Shown one piece after another: positions 32,081 to 42,471 of a DNA stretch of 64,000 nucleotides. How positions within the stretch are numbered: the first letter of the stretch is position 1; every line of letters begins with the position of its first letter. The position numbers and the translations under genes are program-made. The notes under the pieces are model-generated. The model made no database searches. It had not been told where the DNA came from and saw only the letters and a program-made list of their open reading frames with translations. Origin of the DNA: Indolivaga macrotermitis (GTDB lineage Bacteria; Bacteroidota; Bacteroidia; Bacteroidales; Dysgonomonadaceae); assembly GCF_900128985.1 (NCBI RefSeq), contig NZ_FQUC01000002.1:62001-126000 (forward strand). Direction: 5' to 3'.

Positions 32081-35000
32081 CTATTTTGTATATAATTCCA
32101 ATTCGAGCAAAGAGACATTATAATTGTATAAAGCTTCCAGATACCCTAATTTTATGTCTCTTACGGTATTAAAACTCTGAATAAACTGCATTATGTCAGT
32201 ATCACTTTCATAGAATTGGAGTGACGCACTTTGCATCAGAGCATCGGCTTCGGGTAACGCACCCTTCCGATAATAATCGACACTCTCTTTCTGCTGTTTA
32301 GCACGGGCTAAAAGTTCGTCTATTTTGTTCGAAAACTCTTTCTTTTGATACTCATTTTCAATTGTAGAAATATAATAATCTATCTTCGCCTGTTTGATAC
32401 GGCTTTTCTGCTGATTGAAAAACAAAGGAATTGATATCCCTACAGTCCACGAATCAAGACCTGTCAGCGGAGCAATTTTTTGCCTTGAATATCCTAAAGA
32501 GATTTCCGGAAAAAAACGACTCTTTTCTATGCTTATCTGAGCCGCTTTCTCTGCGGATAAACTTTCAAGATAATTTATATGCGACAGAGAAAGGGATTTT
32601 ATCGGAAACATATCCAACGGAACTTCTACAAAAGCCGTATCTGCCGGTATTAAATCAGTTTCCGAATAACACACCCATGCAAGACGACGGGTTGCAATAC
32701 GTAATTCTTCCTGTGTCTGTAGCAAACGTGTAGACATATCTGCGGAAAGTGCCGTAGCCGAGTTTCTATCCAGCAAGGTAATATCTCCTTGCTCATATCT
32801 CAGTTGTGTAGCTTTCCGTAGCCGTTGAATCCATTCATTCTGCTCCTCGTACAACGATAACTGATGAGTTACATACAGATAATTTACCCAAGCACGTTTT
32901 ACTTCGGCTATAATTTCTTTTTTTACAATTTCTTTATAATTCTCACCTGTTGTTACCTGTTTAGATACCAAAGCATTCTTATAATAAGGAGTTAATAAAG
33001 AACCGAATGACTGATTAATCTGAAATTCATTATCGTTCTTATCAGTCCCATTCAACTGCCCCCATGAGTAAGAAAAAGACGTGGCAGGAATTTCCCAAGC
33101 TTCTCCCCGCATTGCCTTTGTCCGCTCAATGGAAGCATTAGCCGATGTTAAGCGAGGATGATTTTCCAAAGCCATAGAAACAGCCTGATCCAATGTTACC
33201 TTTACCTGAGCATTTATTCCTAAATAGGGTAATATCAGCAAGATCAAACCGGCAAAAATCTTTTTGTACCATCCTTTTCTTTTCCATACTACCGTACTGT
33301 TTACTGTACGATAAAGAACCGGTATAATAATTAGGGTCAACAATGTTGATATAATAAGTCCACCGATTACCACTGTCGCCAATGGGCGTTGCACTTCAGC
33401 ACCTGCGGATGTGGCTATTGCCATAGGCACAAATCCTAGTGAGGCTACAAGACCGGTAAGGAAAACAGGACGCAGCAAATGAGGGCAGCCCTTCTCTATT
33501 ATTTTGTGAGTAGATAGTGCATAACGGTTTTTCATACGCAGGGCATTAAAGTGATTTATCATCAAAATACCATTCAAAACTGCAACACCAAAGAGAGCAA
33601 TGAATCCTACCCCGGCAGATATACTGAATGGAAGGTCTCTTAACCATAGAGCCAATATTCCCCCAATTAATGAAAGGGGTACAGTTGTAAATATAACGAG
33701 TGTATACACAATACTCCTGAATGCAAAAAACAGTAAGAGTAAAATCAGCATCAGCGCTACCGGTATTACTACGGTTAATGTAGATATTGCATTCTGCAGA
33801 TTTTCGAATTGACCGCCATATTCGAAATAATATCCCGGCTTAAGTTTCATATTCTCATCTAAAGTGGTTTGTATTTGTTCTACGACATTCTGGATATCGC
33901 CATCGCGGACATTTACCCCTATAACAATACGTCTTTTGGTTGCATCCCTATTGATTTGCAATGGTCCCGAACGGTATTCAACATCCGCAACCTCAGTAAC
34001 AGGGATCAGGCTGCCTTCTGCTGCCCGTACATATAATTTGTCCAGATTCAATTCGGGCACTTTATCATTATTCAAACGTACCACAAGGTCGAACCTCCTT
34101 TCATTCTCAAAAACAACACCTGCTGCTTCTCCTGCATATGCAGTTCTTATTATTGTATTTAATTCTTCAATATTCATTCCATACCGGGCTATTTTAGCCC
34201 GGTCATATTTCACTATCAATTGAGGTAATCCCATTGTCTGTTCAACTAATACATCGGCTGCTCCGGGTACTTGCTCTACAAATCGTGCCGCTTCTTTTGC
34301 TTTCTTATAAAGTTCCTCAGTATCTTCTCCATAAAGCTTTATGGCAATATCGGCTTTTGTTCCACTCATCAACTCATTAAATCTCAGCTGAATCGGTTGG
34401 CTGAAATTAAATTCGACATCAGGAATAATATCCAATGACTCTTTCATCTTTTCTACCATTTCGGCCCGGCTATCTGCAGTAGTCCATTCTTTGAAAGGCT
34501 TCATTATAATCATAATATCTGCATCTTCTACAGCCATAGGATCGGTAGGTACTTCAGCTGTTCCTATTTTAGAGACCACATGCTTTATCTCAGGAAAATT
34601 TTTCAAAAGTATTTTTTCAGCCTGGTCTGCAATTTCAATGCTTCTAGAAAGGGAACTTCCGGCAGGTAAAGTCATCTGCATGGCAAAATCCCCCTCATCC
34701 AATGTCGGAATAAACTCTGCCCCAAGACGATTGAAAAGAAGAAGAGAAGCCCCTAAAGCTGTAAAAGCTATAATTACGGTTAATCCTGCAAAACGGATAG
34801 ACTTATTCAGTACCCGTTTATAAATACTATTCAATTTATTGAAAAAACGATCTGCAAAAGTCAGCTTATTGTTGATAGTACGTTTTAGGAACAGAGATGC
34901 CATCATCGGTACATAAGTCAGAGAAAGAATCAGCGCGCCGATGATGCAAAAAACAAGAGTCTTTGCCATTGGGGTAAAGTATTTCCCTTCAATTCCTGTC

Positions 35001-36397
35001 AAAGTAAGAATCGGGAAAAACACAATAAGTATGATCAACACAGCAAACGTTGCACTGCGTACAACCTCTCCGGCACCGGCTTCTACTTCCGCATCCATTT
35101 GTTGCGGGGTCAGTGTGCGCCCTGCTAACCGGCTACTGTATATATAAGCGAGTATACCCTCTACTATTACAATCGAGCCATCCACCACTATACCAAAATC
35201 TATAGCCCCTAGACTCATCAGATTAGCCGAAACACCGAACAAGCGCATCAGTATAAAGCCAAAAAGCATAGAAAGAGGTATCACGGAAGCAACAATCAGT
35301 CCGGCACGTACATTTCCTAAAAAAATGATAAGTACCAGAAACACAATCAACGCCCCTTCAATAAGATTAAAGATAACGGTAGAGATATTTCGGGTTACTA
35401 ATTCGGAACGGTTAAGATAAGGTTCTATAGTAACTCCTTCCGGCAGTAGTTTTTGAACTTTCTCCACTCTGGATTCCAATTCTTTAGTAACTGCACTTGC
35501 ATTTGCCCCTTTCAGCATCATGGCTATACCGCCTACACATTCTCCTTTTCCGTCTTTTGTCATTGCGCCGAAACGTTTCGGTGAGCCAAACCTTACACTG
35601 CCTATCGCATCTATATGTATAGGTATACCTCCACGATTAGCAACAACAATCTGCTCTATATCGCTTATATCCTCGATCATACCTTCGCTCCGGATATAAT
35701 AAGCTCGATTGACCTTTTCGATATAGCTGCCACCTGTATTTTGATTATTACTTTGTAGGGCAGTATACACATCACCTATAGTTATATCCATTGCATACAA
35801 AGCATCCGGATCAACTGCAACTTCGTACTGTTTCATATATCCCCCGAAGCTATTGATCTCGACAATACCGGGAATACCTGATAAATGTCGCTTCACAATC
35901 CAATCTTGTATCGTACGCAATTCCATTGCATCATACTTGTCTTCGTAACCAGGTGCTACATTTAACACATATTGATATATCTCCCCCAGCCCTGTAGTTA
36001 TGGGCATAAGTTCAGGTGTACCCAACTCTGACGGAATTTCATCGATTACTGTCTGTATCTGTTCGTTGATCAACTGGCGTGCCGCCAGAGTCGGAACATC
36101 TTCTTCAAACACGACTGTTACAAGAGATAGCCCGAAGCGCGACACCGAACGGATCTCCTTCACATTCATGATATTACTCATTGCTATTTCTATAGGAAAA
36201 GTTATCAACTGTTCGACCTCTTGCGGTGCCAAAGTTGGTGAAACCGTCACTATCTGAACCTGATTATTGGTAATATCGGGAACTGCATCTACGGGCAAAG
36301 TAAGCATGGCATAAATTCCCCCCAGTAACAGAAAAAAAGTAGTTAAGGCTACAAATAACTTTTTACGTATTGAGAACCGGACGATAGATTTAAACAT
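32081..36397 (-). CDS. CzcA-type heavy-metal RND pump fused to a TolC-like outer-membrane domain
   Basis: This protein has 1438 residues. Residues 1 to about 1045 form an RND transporter with twelve membrane segments. The heavy-metal signature is in segment 4: D400, D406 and E413 (AIDFGIVVDGSIVIVE), each two residues before the D402/D408/E415 proton-relay residues of CzcA. This pattern is typical of divalent-cation (Zn/Co/Cd) pumps rather than copper/silver CusA types. From about residue 1055 onward (INAQVKVTLDQAVSMALENHP) it continues as an outer-membrane efflux protein domain, a fusion seen in other Bacteroidetes. A single polypeptide would therefore provide both pump and exit channel. It heads the operon with adaptor, kinase, regulator and P-loop genes. 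Confidence 0.92.
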   Translation of the reverse strand: MFKSIVRFSIRKKLFVALTTFFLLLGGIYAMLTLPVDAVPDITNNQVQIVTVSPTLAPQEVEQLITFPIEIAMSNIMNVKEIRSVSRFGLSLVTVVFEEDVPTLAARQLINEQIQTVIDEIPSELGTPELMPITTGLGEIYQYVLNVAPGYEDKYDAMELRTIQDWIVKRHLSGIPGIVEINSFGGYMKQYEVAVDPDALYAMDITIGDVYTALQSNNQNTGGSYIEKVNRAYYIRSEGMIEDISDIEQIVVANRGGIPIHIDAIGSVRFGSPKRFGAMTKDGKGECVGGIAMMLKGANASAVTKELESRVEKVQKLLPEGVTIEPYLNRSELVTRNISTVIFNLIEGALIVFLVLIIFLGNVRAGLIVASVIPLSMLFGFILMRLFGVSANLMSLGAIDFGIVVDGSIVIVEGILAYIYSSRLAGRTLTPQQMDAEVEAGAGEVVRSATFAVLIILIVFFPILTLTGIEGKYFTPMAKTLVFCIIGALILSLTYVPMMASLFLKRTINNKLTFADRFFNKLNSIYKRVLNKSIRFAGLTVIIAFTALGASLLLFNRLGAEFIPTLDEGDFAMQMTLPAGSSLSRSIEIADQAEKILLKNFPEIKHVVSKIGTAEVPTDPMAVEDADIMIIMKPFKEWTTADSRAEMVEKMKESLDIIPDVEFNFSQPIQLRFNELMSGTKADIAIKLYGEDTEELYKKAKEAARFVEQVPGAADVLVEQTMGLPQLIVKYDRAKIARYGMNIEELNTIIRTAYAGEAAGVVFENERRFDLVVRLNNDKVPELNLDKLYVRAAEGSLIPVTEVADVEYRSGPLQINRDATKRRIVIGVNVRDGDIQNVVEQIQTTLDENMKLKPGYYFEYGGQFENLQNAISTLTVVIPVALMLILLLLFFAFRSIVYTLVIFTTVPLSLIGGILALWLRDLPFSISAGVGFIALFGVAVLNGILMINHFNALRMKNRYALSTHKIIEKGCPHLLRPVFLTGLVASLGFVPMAIATSAGAEVQRPLATVVIGGLIISTLLTLIIIPVLYRTVNSTVVWKRKGWYKKIFAGLILLILPYLGINAQVKVTLDQAVSMALENHPRLTSANASIERTKAMRGEAWEIPATSFSYSWGQLNGTDKNDNEFQINQSFGSLLTPYYKNALVSKQVTTGENYKEIVKKEIIAEVKRAWVNYLYVTHQLSLYEEQNEWIQRLRKATQLRYEQGDITLLDRNSATALSADMSTRLLQTQEELRIATRRLAWVCYSETDLIPADTAFVEVPLDMFPIKSLSLSHINYLESLSAEKAAQISIEKSRFFPEISLGYSRQKIAPLTGLDSWTVGISIPLFFNQQKSRIKQAKIDYYISTIENEYQKKEFSNKIDELLARAKQQKESVDYYRKGALPEADALMQSASLQFYESDTDIMQFIQSFNTVRDIKLGYLEALYNYNVSLLELELYTK

Positions 36398-37423: not shown

Positions 37424-37433
37424 CACTTAACAG

Positions 37434-37466
37434 ATCATGTAGGGATAAGAGTTATTCCTACATGAT
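37434..37466 (+). terminator. Hairpin terminator after the DUF1062 gene
   Basis: ATCATGTAGGGATAA pairs with TTATTCCTACATGAT through 15 positions including one G-U pair, with a GAG loop. A short T-rich run follows. It insulates the Ibr-type cassette from the upstream gene. Confidence 0.65.
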
Positions 37467-37714
37467 TATTTCCATATTTCATTTGCAGTAGATAAAACCT
37501 GTATATTGTCGAAACCGCTTGTCGATATGCTCAATACACTTGTAAACAGTTAACAATTTTCAATAAAATATACAAAAAGAAAAATAAAATTGTTTTTTTT
37601 CATTAAAAGCATCCGATATGCTATTTTGTTAAAAAATGAATTGCTAATTTTATAAAATATAGAATTTTGCTAATAGCCAATAAACACTTTTACTTAACAT
37701 CAGACTTACACTAT
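37467..37714 (+). promoter_or_regulatory. Upstream region of the Ibr-type cassette
   Basis: This AT-rich stretch must carry the promoter of the four-gene cassette. TATTTTG at 37622-37628 is the closest match to a -7 element, but it lacks one base of the consensus and has no well-placed -33 box. A TTG codon in frame at 37667 is unlikely to be the real start. Confidence 0.25.
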
Positions 37715-39349
37715 ATGGAAAATCTTCTTATGAAGCTTCAATGTAGAATTAAGGGATCCAGAATATATAATGCATCATCAGGGGAAAGGCTATATATTCC
37801 ATATTACATTGACCGCACACATCCGGTTAAAGTCAAAGTTTTTTTTGAGGTAATCAATGCGCGTCTAAAACTTTTCGTCGAGATACAATCTAATACATAT
37901 AGTAAAGACTGGTGCCTTTGCAAAGCCGAGCAAATCGAAGATTCTCTGAAAAGTCAGTTACACGAAATAATACACGATTGCGAAATTAAACGTAATCAGT
38001 ACTGTTTGCATAAGCAATTGGAAGATGATATCGAGCCCGAACTTTCGGATGTTTCGCCAGTCGAAACAAAAGCAATTCGTTTCTTATGTCAGCGGAAAGT
38101 AGGCGCTTTGATCTCAGATTCGCAATCAAGCCGGTGGCTAGTCGCAATTAGGTTAGTACAGAGCCGTTATCGGGCAATGCAGTTGGAGAGATTGATCGTT
38201 TTCATGCCCAAAGAAGACATCAGACAATTTAAAGATTTATATTCTTCGATTTGGAAAAACAAAACATTTCCTGCCCTTTTTATCAGTATCGAGAGCCTCA
38301 GCCGTAATTTCCAATTATATGAGAGACTGGCGTCTTATGCAAACTCTGCGACAATGATACTGATCGACAGTTGTCATTTATTTAAATCTCCCCTATCCGT
38401 CCGGTCACAGAGAATGGAGAATATAGCTAATAAATGCAATTATAAACTGATTATGACAGACTCTCTGATCACCAATCAAATACATGATGTATACATGCAA
38501 TACAATATACTGGATAGCCTAATCCTGCGGTATTACCGTTGGGAAGATTTTTCCAGAATGCATATCATATTCGGCGGATTAGATAATAATCATATATTAG
38601 GATATAAAAATATAGGTTATCTTGTTGATAAGATCGAACCTTATACTTTCAGCCTTGAAAATGAAAAAACAAACAAATGTAAAGCGAAGATAAAGACATA
38701 TACTTACTATTGCGACCTGACTTCGAGGCAGAAGTATCACTATTCGAAGAAAAAAACAGAACTACTACTACTCATCGAGAAAAACGAATTAACTATACAC
38801 GATGTTTTCAGGACTTTTATCTCCCTCCAAAAAATCGTCTGCGGATACCCGCTGGGAAAAGACAATATTCCGGGATCTTCGGAAACAAATAAGCTCCTCC
38901 TGTTTAAAGAAAACGTAGAAGAAAATAGTATTATCTTCTGCAAATATCTGTTCGAGATAGATATACTATTGTATTTTCTGGGTAGGAGGAATTGCGCTGT
39001 TATAAGAAATAAAGAAGATCACAGTCTGGAAAAGGATTTGTTTCTGCAGAAAAAGAAAAAGTATCTAATTTCCACATTGTATTCTCCGGCAACTAAGCTA
39101 AGCGGTATAGCAAATTGTCACAATATAGTTTTTTTCAGCTTATCTTTCCATTATGCCGATTACCGGCGTTGCTTTACATATATAGCAGATTGCGGTATAT
39201 CCGGTGTAGTTGTAAAACGCTTTGTTACCAATTCGGGGATAGACAAGATTATTGTAGAGAATCTGAAACGGAAAAACAAATTAGCCAAAGAATTACACAG
39301 CTTACTGGCAGATAAAAACAGACTTGCCGAATTTATAAAATGTTTATAA
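37715..39349 (+). CDS. SNF2-type helicase-like protein with all ATPase motifs degenerate
   Basis: From the ATG at 37715 the protein has 544 residues. The order of segments matches a SNF2 superfamily 2 helicase, but the motifs have decayed. The Walker A position (about 130-139) reads GALISDSQSS where active forms have a GxGKT loop. Motif II (about 215-224) is ILIDSCHLFK instead of DExH. Motif III (about 245-254) is LIMTDSLITN instead of LTGTPI. The C-terminal half keeps the fold pattern up to the final NLKRKNKLAKEL helix but lacks the QxxGRxxR arginines. The frame is intact over 1.6 kb, so the protein is probably made and used as a non-catalytic DNA or protein binder. The GNAT-like gene follows after 19 bp. 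Confidence 0.65.
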   Translation: MENLLMKLQCRIKGSRIYNASSGERLYIPYYIDRTHPVKVKVFFEVINARLKLFVEIQSNTYSKDWCLCKAEQIEDSLKSQLHEIIHDCEIKRNQYCLHKQLEDDIEPELSDVSPVETKAIRFLCQRKVGALISDSQSSRWLVAIRLVQSRYRAMQLERLIVFMPKEDIRQFKDLYSSIWKNKTFPALFISIESLSRNFQLYERLASYANSATMILIDSCHLFKSPLSVRSQRMENIANKCNYKLIMTDSLITNQIHDVYMQYNILDSLILRYYRWEDFSRMHIIFGGLDNNHILGYKNIGYLVDKIEPYTFSLENEKTNKCKAKIKTYTYYCDLTSRQKYHYSKKKTELLLLIEKNELTIHDVFRTFISLQKIVCGYPLGKDNIPGSSETNKLLLFKENVEENSIIFCKYLFEIDILLYFLGRRNCAVIRNKEDHSLEKDLFLQKKKKYLISTLYSPATKLSGIANCHNIVFFSLSFHYADYRRCFTYIADCGISGVVVKRFVTNSGIDKIIVENLKRKNKLAKELHSLLADKNRLAEFIKCL

Positions 39350-39368
39350 ACTTAAGACAACACATACG

Positions 39369-39779
39369 ATGAACGCACCTGATATTAAAGCACAAACTTA
39401 TCATATCGAAAAAGTATGGGGAACCGACAACCGTTTATATAACCTTATCGGACCTTTTGTTATGAATCCCACTGTTATCCGGTTGAATGGTGGCTATCCT
39501 TTCAAGAATACCGAAGATCATATCTGGTATATAGCAATGAAAAATAAGAATATGGTAATCGGCTTCTTATCCGTTCATAACAAGAATATTTGTAATGATT
39601 TTACCTGGCAGGATAATAATGTGTTAAGAATACTGATAGACAAAGCTCTTTCGGATATGAATACGGGAACTATGGTCTCTTTTACTGCAGTCGAGCGCGA
39701 ACTCGAACTTCTCGAATCCCTCGGTTTTTCGCTCGAACAAAAATATACCCAATACTTCAAGATGGTTAAGACCGTATAA
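39369..39779 (+). CDS. Small GNAT-like protein of the Ibr-type cassette
   Basis: This 136-residue cytoplasmic protein has a GNAT-like order of elements. A central strand region KNMVIGFLSVHN is followed by a helix DNNVLRILIDKAL. The C-terminal strand-helix-strand FTAVERELELLESLGFSLEQKYTQYFKM is typical of the end of acetyltransferase folds. The acetyl-CoA pyrophosphate loop (Q/RxxGxG/A) is not recognisable, so activity is uncertain. It lies 19 bp after the helicase-like gene and 12 bp before the IbrA-like gene, so it is part of the same transcript. The assignment to the fold is by pattern only. Confidence 0.5.
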   Translation: MNAPDIKAQTYHIEKVWGTDNRLYNLIGPFVMNPTVIRLNGGYPFKNTEDHIWYIAMKNKNMVIGFLSVHNKNICNDFTWQDNNVLRILIDKALSDMNTGTMVSFTAVERELELLESLGFSLEQKYTQYFKMVKTV

Positions 39780-39791
39780 TACCCAAGAGTT

Positions 39792-41090
39792 ATGCTGTAT
39801 AAGAATGTATATCAGAAAACGATGGAGCGCATCGAGTATATTTTCAGCCACTTCGATAACATATATGTATCTTTCTCGGGTGGTAAAGATAGTGGGGTAT
39901 TGCTCAACCTGACTCTCGATTATATGCGTACCCATCATATAACTAAAAAGATCACGGTATTGCATATCGATGTAGAAGCGTCTTATCAGACAACGATGAA
40001 TTTTGTAGAAAAAATGTATCTCGAGAATCTCGATCTGATTAATCCATATTGGGTATGTCTTCCTCTTATCACAACAAACGCTGTTTCAATGTACGAACCT
40101 TACTGGATATTCTGGGACTCGAAGAAGAAAGACAAGTGGGTACGCCCTATGCCGAACCATCCATTTGTTATAAATGAAAACAATAATCCTTTCGGGTTTT
40201 ACAAAGAGAATATGACTTTCGAAGAGTTTGCTCCTAATTTTGGAGTCTGGCTCAATAAACATACCAATTCGAAAAGAACGGCTTGCCTGATTGGTATTCG
40301 TTCGGACGAAAGCCTGAACCGTTATTGGGCTATACACAGAGAGGACAAATCTCTATTCGAAGGGAAGAAATATTCTACACAGATTTCCGAATCCTGTTAT
40401 AATTTTTATCCGATCTTCGATTGGAAAGTATCTGATATCTGGGTATACAACGGAAAGTTCAATAAACCATATAATCAGATTTATGACTTATTTTATAAGG
40501 CCGGAGTACCTCTTTCGAGGATGCGAATTTGCGAACCATACGGAGATGAGCAAAAAGCGGGATTGAATCTGTTCAAGATACTTGAACCCGAAACATGGGT
40601 ACGCCTCGTAGACAGGGTCAGCGGAGCCAACTTCGGAAATATATATTGTGGCACCAAAGCCACAGGCTCAAAAAAAATTATACTGCCTGAAGGACATACT
40701 TGGAAAAGCTACTGCAAATTCCTGTTAAAAACTTTACCGGAGGAAACCCGTAAAATATATATGACCAAGTTTATCCGCTTTATCCGTTACTGGAATAAAA
40801 CAGGAAGTCCTGTTGCTAATGAAGATATAGAACAGTTAAATCCGGATATGATTGTTAACACATACACTTTCAGTAATCGCGGGAAAGGAGATAAATACGT
40901 TGTCAGATTCAAAACAATACCGGATGTATTGCCTGGTCTGGATAACAAAACCGATTTCCTATCATGGAAACGTATGTGTATGGCTATTCTAAAGAATGAC
41001 ATTACATGCCAGTCTCTCTCATTCTCTATAACCAAACGGCAGATTTTACGCCAGCAGGAGCTACTCGAAAAATACAAAATACTATTATGA
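39792..41090 (+). CDS. IbrA-like PAPS-reductase-family protein (DUF3440)
   Basis: This 432-residue protein has an N-type ATP pyrophosphatase PP-loop at residues 29-34 (SGGKDS) and the later family segment GIRSDESLNRYWAI. The central block RICEPYGDEQKAGLNLFKILEPETW and the length match DUF3440/IbrA. IbrA and IbrB of E. coli are a gene pair that affects expression of prophage-borne surface genes. The mechanism is not known. The PP-loop family activates substrates by adenylation, as in CysH or the DNA phosphorothioation protein DndC. No cysH-type partner genes are nearby, and a ParB-domain gene overlaps its stop (ATGA). It therefore belongs to the accessory cassette and not to sulfate assimilation. 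Confidence 0.85.
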   Translation: MLYKNVYQKTMERIEYIFSHFDNIYVSFSGGKDSGVLLNLTLDYMRTHHITKKITVLHIDVEASYQTTMNFVEKMYLENLDLINPYWVCLPLITTNAVSMYEPYWIFWDSKKKDKWVRPMPNHPFVINENNNPFGFYKENMTFEEFAPNFGVWLNKHTNSKRTACLIGIRSDESLNRYWAIHREDKSLFEGKKYSTQISESCYNFYPIFDWKVSDIWVYNGKFNKPYNQIYDLFYKAGVPLSRMRICEPYGDEQKAGLNLFKILEPETWVRLVDRVSGANFGNIYCGTKATGSKKIILPEGHTWKSYCKFLLKTLPEETRKIYMTKFIRFIRYWNKTGSPVANEDIEQLNPDMIVNTYTFSNRGKGDKYVVRFKTIPDVLPGLDNKTDFLSWKRMCMAILKNDITCQSLSFSITKRQILRQQELLEKYKILL

Positions 41091-41746
41091 AACCAGATAC
41101 AACCGACATAAACAAGACTATACAATCTCTTACTAAAGAGATTTGCACGCTTATCGGACAACTATCCGATTTAGATTATAAGATTGACACCCTCAACTAT
41201 ATACGTCTGATGTTACATAAGGTCAGCCCATTAAAGCACCAGCCTGTTGATTTTGTGGCTTGGGAAAAAACAGCGAATATAGAAGGCAACGACTATAACC
41301 CCAACAATGTAGCCCCTCCTGAAAAGAGATTATTAATAACCTCGATAGAAGAGGATGGCTATACGATGCCAATTGTTACTTGCCCCGAAGACGGATTGTT
41401 CAGGATAGTAGATGGTTTTCACCGCAGGCAGGCTGAGAAACATTCTTTAAAAATATCGCAAAACACTTACGGACGTTTGCCTGTCACCTTTATACGCGAA
41501 TCGAAACGTGAACTCGACGACCGGATGGCCTCAACAGTACGTCACAACAGGGCCAGAGGTTCTCACGATATTGATATGATGGCTAATATCGTCAAAGAAC
41601 TGATATCGATCGGCAGGTCTCCGGGATGGATATCCAAACATGTGGGAATGGATCTGGACGAGATTCTTCGCCTAAAACAAATAACAGGTATTGCATCGCT
41701 GTTTGCAGATAAGGACTTTTCTTACAGTAAAGAAATCGGAGATTAG
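41087..41746 (+). CDS. IbrB-like ParB-domain protein
   Basis: The ATG at 41087 overlaps the TGA of the IbrA-like gene and gives 219 residues. An upstream in-frame ATG at 41006 lies inside that gene and is unlikely. Residues about 65-175 form a ParB/Srx-type nuclease-like domain with the motif IVDGFHRRQAEK (107-118) and a preceding NDYNPNNVAPPEKRL segment. A C-terminal helix-turn-helix-like stretch follows (ELISIGRSPGWISKHVGMDLDEILRLKQITG). This pairing with an IbrA-like protein matches the ibrA-ibrB arrangement. Members of the ParB superfamily can bind DNA and CTP, and some cut nucleic acids. Which applies here is unknown. It converges on the carbonic anhydrase gene, 45 bp away. Confidence 0.83.
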   Translation: MKPDTTDINKTIQSLTKEICTLIGQLSDLDYKIDTLNYIRLMLHKVSPLKHQPVDFVAWEKTANIEGNDYNPNNVAPPEKRLLITSIEEDGYTMPIVTCPEDGLFRIVDGFHRRQAEKHSLKISQNTYGRLPVTFIRESKRELDDRMASTVRHNRARGSHDIDMMANIVKELISIGRSPGWISKHVGMDLDEILRLKQITGIASLFADKDFSYSKEIGD

Positions 41747-41791: not shown

Positions 41792-42442
41792 TTACAGATT
41801 ACCTGTAATATCATAAATATCTTTTATCTTTTCGAGCTCTCCATCTAAATCGAAATGCAAATCATGGAGCCGGGCGTCTTTGATATCGAATACCCATGCG
41901 GCAACTTTAGGATACCCTTTTTCGTAATATGACTTCTGTACTTCTCCTATTTTCAGAATGTTGCGACATTGTTCATAGGTATTAAGCTCGACAAGGCGGC
42001 GATGCTTAGCATCTTTGCTTTCAATAGCATCGAGCTCTTTTTTGTGAAGATGGTAAACATCCCGTATAGTTCTTAGCCAAGGGTTGAGTATACCGTAGTC
42101 CGATTTTGCCATAGCAGCTTGTATACCTCCACATCCGTAGTGACCACAAACGATGATATATTTAACTTTCAGATATTCCACACCATAGTTGATAACCGAG
42201 AGAGCACTCAGGTCTGTGGTTATAACCATGTTCGCAATATTACGGTGAATAAAAACTTCTCCCGGTTTTAACCCCATAATCTGGTTTGGATGAACCCTGC
42301 TGTCTGAACAGCCGATATATAAAAAATCGGGATGCTGGTCTGCAGCTAATAATTTAAATAATCCGGGATTATCTACTTTATTCTTTTCAATCCAGCTATT
42401 ATTAGACTCAAATATTTTATCATATTTTTCCTGATCTGTCAT
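41792..42442 (-). CDS. can: Beta-class carbonic anhydrase
   Basis: This 216-residue cytoplasmic enzyme interconverts CO2 and bicarbonate. The zinc site is C45, H101 and C104, in CSDSR (45-49) and HYGCGG (101-106), with the D47/R49 pair intact. The ATG at 42442 was chosen because a TTG 24 bp upstream lies inside the predicted promoter element. It is a single gene, convergent with the Ibr-type cassette. It may supply bicarbonate for the carboxylation reactions of a succinate-producing fermenter (inference). Confidence 0.93.
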   Translation of the reverse strand: MTDQEKYDKIFESNNSWIEKNKVDNPGLFKLLAADQHPDFLYIGCSDSRVHPNQIMGLKPGEVFIHRNIANMVITTDLSALSVINYGVEYLKVKYIIVCGHYGCGGIQAAMAKSDYGILNPWLRTIRDVYHLHKKELDAIESKDAKHRRLVELNTYEQCRNILKIGEVQKSYYEKGYPKVAAWVFDIKDARLHDLHFDLDGELEKIKDIYDITGNL

Positions 42443-42463
42443 CTTTTCATCTTTTATTTGCGT

Positions 42464-42471
42464 CAAAGATA
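42464..42471 (-). promoter_or_regulatory. -7 promoter element of the carbonic anhydrase gene
   Basis: On the - strand this reads TATCTTTG, a full match to TAnnTTTG, about 22 bp before the ATG at 42442. No clear -33 TTTG was found. Confidence 0.5.

Follow-up and report, generated by a model that had tools for sequence, protein, structure and literature searches.

Why would a bacterial chromosome keep a SNF2-like protein that has lost its motor motifs beside a PP-loop protein, a small GNAT-fold protein and a ParB-like protein? This arrangement is found in Indolivaga macrotermitis, in the window analysed here, a 64,000-nucleotide stretch of contig NZ_FQUC01000002.1 (positions 62,001 to 126,000). 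The cassette consists of four co-directional genes at window positions 37715-41746 on the + strand. P1 (37715-39349, 544 amino acids) encodes a SNF2-like pseudo-helicase, P2 (39369-39779, 136 amino acids) a GNAT-fold protein, P3 (39792-41090, 432 amino acids) IbrA, a DUF3440 protein with a PP-loop domain, and P4 (41087-41746, 219 amino acids) IbrB, a ParB/sulfiredoxin-like protein. The intergenic distances are 19 bp between P1 and P2, 12 bp between P2 and IbrA, and -4 bp between IbrA and IbrB. The mechanical open reading frame (ORF) of P1 opens earlier, at TTG 37667; the start was set at ATG 37715 because the alignment of homologs favours it. A preliminary description had given the same four genes, coordinates, strand and gaps, and its assignments (a SNF2-like protein without ATPase motifs, a small GNAT-like protein, a PP-loop (SGGKDS) DUF3440 protein and a ParB-domain protein) were borne out by the analyses below. 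By inference, the likeliest role of the cassette is nucleic-acid modification.

The preliminary description had taken the four genes for a linked system, and a check of gene order across genomes was named beforehand. The order is conserved. P1-P2-IbrA-IbrB, in this order, is present in 8/101 genomes of the same family, in two genera. IbrA was detected at E ≤ 1e-20 in 16/101 family genomes, and P1 at E ≤ 1e-15 in the same eight that hold the full cassette. Since eight genomes hold all four genes in order, the arrangement is not due to chance. Three close copies (L190, L191 and L193) share 87.6-88.7% DNA identity over 4.15-4.45 kb and no further, the identity stopping 3 to 18 bases past the IbrB stop codon. 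Of 20 window ORFs tested, none outside the cassette recurs at any of the other seven cassettes or at the locus of genome G421 (stretches of up to 19 kb). The sharp limits of identity together with the unshared flanks indicate that the cassette travels, or is swapped, as one piece. No recombinase-like gene lies inside it. At L195 (G410:C310, 6377-10583) the P2-IbrA pair is duplicated in tandem after IbrB. The three-gene form, in four genomes of one other genus of the family (L199-L202), has the same 231-amino-acid gene beside IbrB, as is expected of a resident operon.

P2 is a close companion of IbrA. It is present in 27/393 Bacteroidales genomes, IbrA adjoins it in 27/27, and IbrB was seen with the P2-IbrA pair in 23/27 of these loci, which were short. 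Scanning the genome_contigs collection with P2 gave 102 relatives, the best 80 of which were retained. IbrA follows P2 in 79 of these 80 (a few are split or cut) and the remaining locus ends at a contig edge; IbrB was found in 77, and a SNF2 gene in none, with flanks of up to 8 kb. P2 is therefore a near-obligate neighbour of IbrA, a pairing that the preliminary description had missed. No relatives of P2 were found in viral_contigs. By tblastn P2 is present in L197 (E 4e-32), and none was detected in L071, L168, L196, L205 or L225. Three P2-IbrA-IbrB loci labelled as phage or plasmid (L008, L214 and L215) have neighbours like those of Bacteroidales chromosomes and are possibly mislabelled.

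P2 has no family match at E ≤ 1 in Pfam, NCBIfam, PHROGs or PADLOC. Its structure was predicted with AlphaFold (AF2) from a 51-row alignment, the window protein plus proteins from 50 of the 80 loci. The model (predicted local distance difference test score, pLDDT, 88.9; predicted template modelling score, pTM, 0.81) has GNAT enzymes as its best Foldseek matches in the PDB (5jph, E 3.6e-5, template modelling score, TM, 0.66; also ElaA), and its matches among viral structures include phage acetyltransferases. P2 thus belongs to the GNAT superfamily by fold, at a TM of about 0.66. GNAT acetyltransferases bind coenzyme A (CoA) through a loop with the motif (R/Q)xxGx(G/A) between strand 4 and helix 3. 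This string occurs in 4/84 P2 sequences and at the expected position in none of the four, so P2 does not qualify as a CoA-dependent GNAT acetyltransferase. Because the loop is missing, P2 may not be an ordinary acetyltransferase. Mom of phage Mu, a GNAT-like enzyme that modifies DNA, may offer a parallel.

P1 matches phrog_62, a DNA helicase family, at E 9.5e-22. Not one of the 8 cassette copies retains helicase motif I, II, III, V or VI. The former motif I (Walker A), at 38114-38140 on the + strand, now reads SDSQSSRWL where relative L069 reads SDVGTGKTK. The replacement is itself conserved: an (R/K)W pair stands at motif I in 8/8 copies, DxCH at motif II in 7/8, and MTxSL at motif III in 8/8. 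None of the eight copies has the features of an active SNF2/SF2 helicase (Walker A and B, TGTP, V and VI). The ratio of nonsynonymous to synonymous substitution rates (dN/dS) was 0.130, 0.157 and 0.136 in three pairs of relatives. Eight pairs were tested and these three had unsaturated silent sites; pairs including the window P1 were saturated. Values of 0.13-0.16 indicate that P1 is under purifying selection. With a full ORF in 8/8 copies as well, a decaying pseudogene was rejected, and P1 is a retained pseudo-motor. The absence of the motifs had been recognised earlier; the conservation of the dead motor had been overlooked.

Other P1-type proteins retain the motor to different degrees. L069 (a partial protein) has intact SDVGTGKTK, DESH and TGTP, and L222 has intact motifs; the neighbours of both are phage-like by eye. 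L068 and L168 have a slightly changed motif I (TMKSK) and keep II, III, V and VI. An intermediate occurs in G706, a class-level relative, in which GSGKT is kept, motif II has become DNSH and TGTP is lost; its SNF2 gene lies directly 5' of IbrA, followed by IbrB, with no P2. No relatives of P1 were found in viral_contigs. Immediately 5' of SNF2, the phage-type loci L070 (5758-6108), L071 (2954-3277), L205 (7325-7645) and L224 (9871-10104) encode a conserved protein of 77-116 amino acids; the L071 copy has no Pfam match.

The SNF2-IbrA-IbrB set is also found in phages, a kinship not noticed in the preliminary description. IbrA relatives were detected in 216/50,697 phage records, and 39 of the 216 cover at least 80%. 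Nineteen phage or viral IbrA loci were examined, 9 from phage records and 10 from IMG/VR; two further records were looked at later. A SNF2 gene lies beside IbrA-IbrB in 7/19, upstream in L001, L002, L003, L009, L030 and L037 and downstream in L004. All seven SNF2 proteins keep their ATPase motifs, with NGTL for NGTP in L004. P2 was found in 1/19, in L008, an unverified record with bacterial-looking neighbours. Viral contig L168 carries a P1-type SNF2 gene with IbrA-IbrB. The genome of the window holds a second SNF2-IbrA-IbrB set on another contig (L196, G000:C26, 4481-8023), likewise missed earlier. Its SNF2 protein (486 amino acids) is 69% identical to that of L070 and has GTGKT, DES, NGTP, GLN and RTGQ, and the set lies among phage-like genes, some of them terminase-like by eye.

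Some features of individual phage loci were recorded alongside. In several phages without SNF2, a protein of 130-141 amino acids with a YHPxWLWED-type start adjoins IbrA (L033:350-748; L036:4830-5237; L038:4333-4725; L213:3552-3977), and the L033 copy has no Pfam match. At L205 (7626-8790) the SNF2 gene beside IbrA-IbrB is split over two frames and an integrase is adjacent. Phage phiFN37 has one ParB-like gene by IbrA and another by a homolog of queuine tRNA-ribosyltransferase.

Where the cassette stands among these loci was examined with IbrA trees. The first tree had 58 rows; the second had 37 of these, 21 being left out, including 5 long-branch rows. In the 58-row tree the cassette IbrA proteins form a clade of 9 rows (support 100/99) whose sister is the SNF2-linked L071, followed by SNF2-linked L002 and L030 (95/87). 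The common chromosomal P2-IbrA-IbrB clade is separate and lies near L070 (86/63), the C26 copy (96/84) and phage L001 (100/99). The 37-row tree without long branches gave the same picture. In these trees the cassette clade nests among SNF2-linked phage lineages. A single clade of P2-linked IbrA was rejected by the approximately unbiased test (p-AU 7.5e-8, 37 rows), which means that P2 joined IbrA at least twice, was lost from phage lines, or that IbrA was exchanged between operons.

IbrA keeps residues that look like those of an active site. It matches PF11922 (DUF3440) with 184.6 bits (cut-off 25), the domain covering residues 238-417 (40503-41042, + strand), the PAPS (3'-phosphoadenosine 5'-phosphosulfate) reductase domain with 56.7 bits (cut-off 22.5), and phrog_2302 at E 3.5e-103. 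The PP-loop SGGKDS is at residues 29-34 (39876-39893, + strand). Among 99 collected IbrA proteins this motif reads SGGKDS in 91, SCGKDS in 7 and SSGKDS in 1. D60, E62, R170, E173 and R245 are invariant in 40 sequences. The structural neighbours of the predicted model are CysH, FMN adenylyltransferase, CysD and FAD synthase, with TilS, TtuA and NcsA also among the matches; the PP-loop relatives of IbrA are adenylyltransferases or PAPS reductases. The catalytic motif of the PAPS reductase CysH is ECGxH. It is present in 0/58 IbrA proteins, IbrA falls outside CysH, and the ordinary sulfate-assimilation enzyme that would have spoken against a linked system was thus rejected. A DndC relative was rejected as well, with 27.9 bits against NCBIfam TIGR03183 (cut-off 290.4) and no invariant cysteines for a 4Fe-4S cluster. 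No cysteine is invariant in the 12- and 40-sequence IbrA alignments, and because no cysteine is universally conserved, DndC-type sulfur chemistry is weakened. The earlier tie of the PP-loop to nucleic-acid modification was reasonable; its DndC side loses ground. Directly 5' of IbrA, L031 (218-487) and L032 (2877-3176) each carry a small ORF similar to the IbrA end (the KNDxxxxxLG region).

IbrB matches phrog_2159 at E 3.4e-59, and its profile finds ParB and Noc in the PDB and, weakly, SbnI (E 0.0013). The box DGFHR (family pattern DGxHR) lies at 41411-41425 and RHNRARG at 41540-41560, both on the + strand. In alignment A4 (11 sequences) D109, G110, H112 and R113 are invariant, as are N154, R155 and G158; the other four residues of RHNRARG are conserved in at least 90%. 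With a ParB-like domain, both boxes and a place adjoining IbrA, the protein is a member of the IbrB family. Its N-terminal extension resembles that of E. coli phage IbrB in A4, and a further part is helix-turn-helix-like, as judged by eye. The match to DndB is weak (E 0.058).

How might these proteins act together? We propose that the cassette is a chromosomally domesticated phage module, and hold this, with the whole mechanism that follows, at a little short of an even chance. Through its PP-loop, IbrA would adenylate an acceptor that belongs either to a nucleic acid, with DNA the best candidate, or to a small group destined for attachment to it. IbrB, as a ParB-like DNA- and nucleotide-binding subunit, would bring IbrA to DNA. 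In phages, SNF2 would move along or remodel DNA and so let the enzyme act; in the domesticated form P1 would keep a binding or scaffold role only. P2 would complete or tune the reaction, and P2 and the pseudo-motor together would replace or tune SNF2 delivery. The outcome would be a mark that alters gene or prophage expression. In work by Sandt from 2002, IbrAB is said to have been named for activating prophage eib genes, and a mark that changes expression would agree with that reported effect in E. coli. The effect on eib genes is cited in PMC7649339. According to PMC12839542, DpdB, a ParB-like ATPase, drives base insertion by DpdA. By analogy, this system and CmoX/CmoY would tie IbrB to DNA modification. 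A broader history is conceivable and, on balance, doubtful: Bacteroidales chromosomes would have domesticated the phage SNF2-IbrA-IbrB set on two or more occasions, on each of them with a GNAT subunit added and the motor dropped or made a conserved pseudo-ATPase, to give a new complex that makes a nucleic-acid modification.

Several observations weigh against the domesticated-module proposal. SNF2 was not seen beside IbrA in 12/19 phage or viral loci, several of them short contigs, so the core may be able to do without a motor. L070 has P2 and an intact SNF2 in one locus, so the presence of P2 does not preclude a working motor, and its position in the tree is weakly supported (86/63). The one-clade test was run after the first tree was known. 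A ninth genome, G421 (L194), has P2-IbrA-IbrB of the cassette clade with P1 absent, and a strong P1 relative with intact motifs (L224, G410:C267) has no IbrA in the 17 kb examined. DUF3440 is present in 34/393 Bacteroidales genomes and P2 in 27, so P2 does not accompany every IbrA; a few of the IbrA proteins without it are divergent or lie close to the end of a contig. The IbrA model has a pLDDT of 80, and its C-terminal half is of low confidence. C89 is present in 96% and C396 in 94% of the 99 IbrA proteins (among the 19 viral proteins the figures are 84% and 74%), which keeps sulfur chemistry in play. IbrB shares only distant similarity with ParB proteins of the DpdB type (best pairwise E 2e-4). 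DpdB is suggested to be dispensable in certain Dpd clusters (PMC12839542), and the ParBc proteins that accompany CmoX and CmoY have a role called unknown in PMC12783734. Enzymes of the GNAT and PP-loop kinds have other substrates too, among them tRNA, proteins and metabolites, and no neighbour gene of the cassette points to a target.

The substrate could instead be tRNA or another RNA, with IbrA adenylating a base, P2 handling an acyl group or amine, and the SNF2-like protein serving as an RNA or ribonucleoprotein scaffold. Many PP-loop enzymes modify tRNA, TilS, TtuA and NcsA are among the structure matches of IbrA, and the tRNA cytidine acetyltransferase TmcA has a helicase-plus-GNAT design. 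The phage partner, however, is of the SNF2 type, a family of double-stranded DNA translocases, IbrB resembles the DNA-binding protein ParB, and Pfam reported no known RNA-binding domain in the four proteins. We regard RNA modification as unlikely.

A complex that regulates transcription and carries out no new nucleic-acid chemistry also seems an unlikely account. Here IbrB would sit on operators, IbrA would sense ATP or another nucleotide, P1 and P2 would be accessory, and prophage or host genes would be controlled. The ParB boxes and helix-turn-helix-like part (by eye) of IbrB would suit this, as would the activation of eib genes that reportedly gave IbrAB its name. The E. coli ybdNM operon is repressed by CitR, according to PMC9068703. 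Against regulation alone, the PP-loop and the five invariant residues of IbrA look like a retained active site and fit catalysis.

The preliminary description had further raised a role in defence. Kinship to phages, patchy spread (8/101) and movement between loci in one piece would fit the cargo of an anti-phage defence or anti-superinfection system, and IbrA has weak partial matches to the PADLOC models of DndC (E 3e-8) and BrxP (E 7.4e-7). With no component match beyond these and an equally weak one of P1 to DrmD (E 0.0097), and with no defence-island location, the cassette does not qualify as a known defence system. PADLOC was run on 73/74 neighbours of the eight cassettes (ORFs of at least 120 amino acids within 9 kb; the duplicate IbrA of L195 was dropped) and hit 11 families, each represented once, dGTPase and reverse transcriptase among them. 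A defence island was rejected on this basis, which leaves a defence role by location unsupported. In Pfam, NCBIfam, PHROGs and PADLOC, none of the four proteins matched a nuclease or toxin family above a curated cut-off, and the three-gene form, with its shared neighbour in four genomes of one genus, is like a resident operon. A defence system is thus quite improbable. A sulfur or cysteine metabolic set, with a PAPS-reductase-like enzyme, a ParB-fold serine kinase and an acyltransferase, is more improbable still: CysH and CysD are among the nearest folds of IbrA and IbrB weakly matches SbnI, a serine kinase, but ECGxH is missing, the genes are tied to SNF2 genes and phage genomes, and P2 has no CoA loop.

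Among the 25 of 101 Pfam families listed for the neighbours of the cassettes, most have to do with regulation, metabolism, efflux or glycosidases, and PHROGs gave one integrase-family match among 25 of 45 families listed. Such a context resembles neither a defence island nor a prophage. A prophage in place was rejected for the window, where the near neighbours are efflux, regulator, carbonic anhydrase and glycosidase genes. Upstream, a 16-bp hairpin at 37433-37467 (+ strand; -19.7 kcal/mol, z -4.76) is a possible terminator of the preceding gene. A terminator had been claimed here; the hairpin is strong and is absent from the output of the terminator scan. Downstream, the convergent gene described earlier encodes a carbonic anhydrase (41792-42466, - strand). 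Further away, a 1438-amino-acid ORF (32081-36397, - strand) appears to encode an RND efflux permease running in frame into a TolC-like outer-membrane part; Pfam ACR_tran is among the neighbour matches for the RND part, and the TolC-like part was judged by eye.

IbrA and IbrB are known families, and adjacent SNF2, IbrA and IbrB locus tags (Listeria lmo1311-1310-1309) already stand in a table of PMC5736727; the likeness to SNF2-IbrA-IbrB is that of the table entry. No published description of the trio as a system, of the GNAT partner or of the pseudo-motor was found in the open-licence literature. The IbrA-IbrB pair is widespread among bacterial genomes and phages. Reconstitution has two concrete starting points, the GNAT protein that is a near-obligate neighbour of IbrA and the SNF2 protein that partners the pair in phages, and the natural series from intact through partly decayed to conserved pseudo-motor allows a direct test of the motor's role and of its dispensability in the host. 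The cassette suggests that DNA or RNA is the target of a new complex, whether chemical or regulatory in its action. If the complex does mark DNA or RNA, it would represent a new modification pathway and could explain the effect of IbrAB on prophage expression.

Among known systems, the IbrA-IbrB pair of E. coli and its phages (DUF3440/YbdN and ParB-like/YbdM) has the same two families in the same order, and the two proteins of phage PhiR5_2 share about 38% (IbrA) and about 42% (IbrB) identity with their cassette counterparts. The E. coli phage locus differs from the cassette in that no SNF2 gene is annotated by the pair and nothing there matches P2. Streptococcus and Lactobacillus phages carry the SNF2-IbrA-IbrB trio, with the SNF2 gene directly 5' of IbrA-IbrB; in the three phages the SNF2 protein is shorter (389-412 amino acids) with motifs intact, and P2 has no match at their loci. 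Chromosomes of Bacteroides, Parabacteroides, Odoribacter and other Bacteroidales share the order P2-IbrA-IbrB with the cassette, whereas these GNAT-IbrA-IbrB operons are without SNF2 in the best 80 loci and form a separate IbrA clade. The Dnd/Ssp phosphorothioation system may be likened to IbrA/IbrB in pairing a PP-loop enzyme (DndC) with a ParB-superfamily partner (DndB); it differs in that DndA, DndD and DndE are not among the four cassette genes and IbrA is without invariant cysteines. In Dpd and CmoX/CmoY the catalytic enzymes are others and the ParB-like proteins are distantly alike, yet there too a ParB-like protein stands beside a DNA base-modifying enzyme, as IbrB stands beside IbrA.

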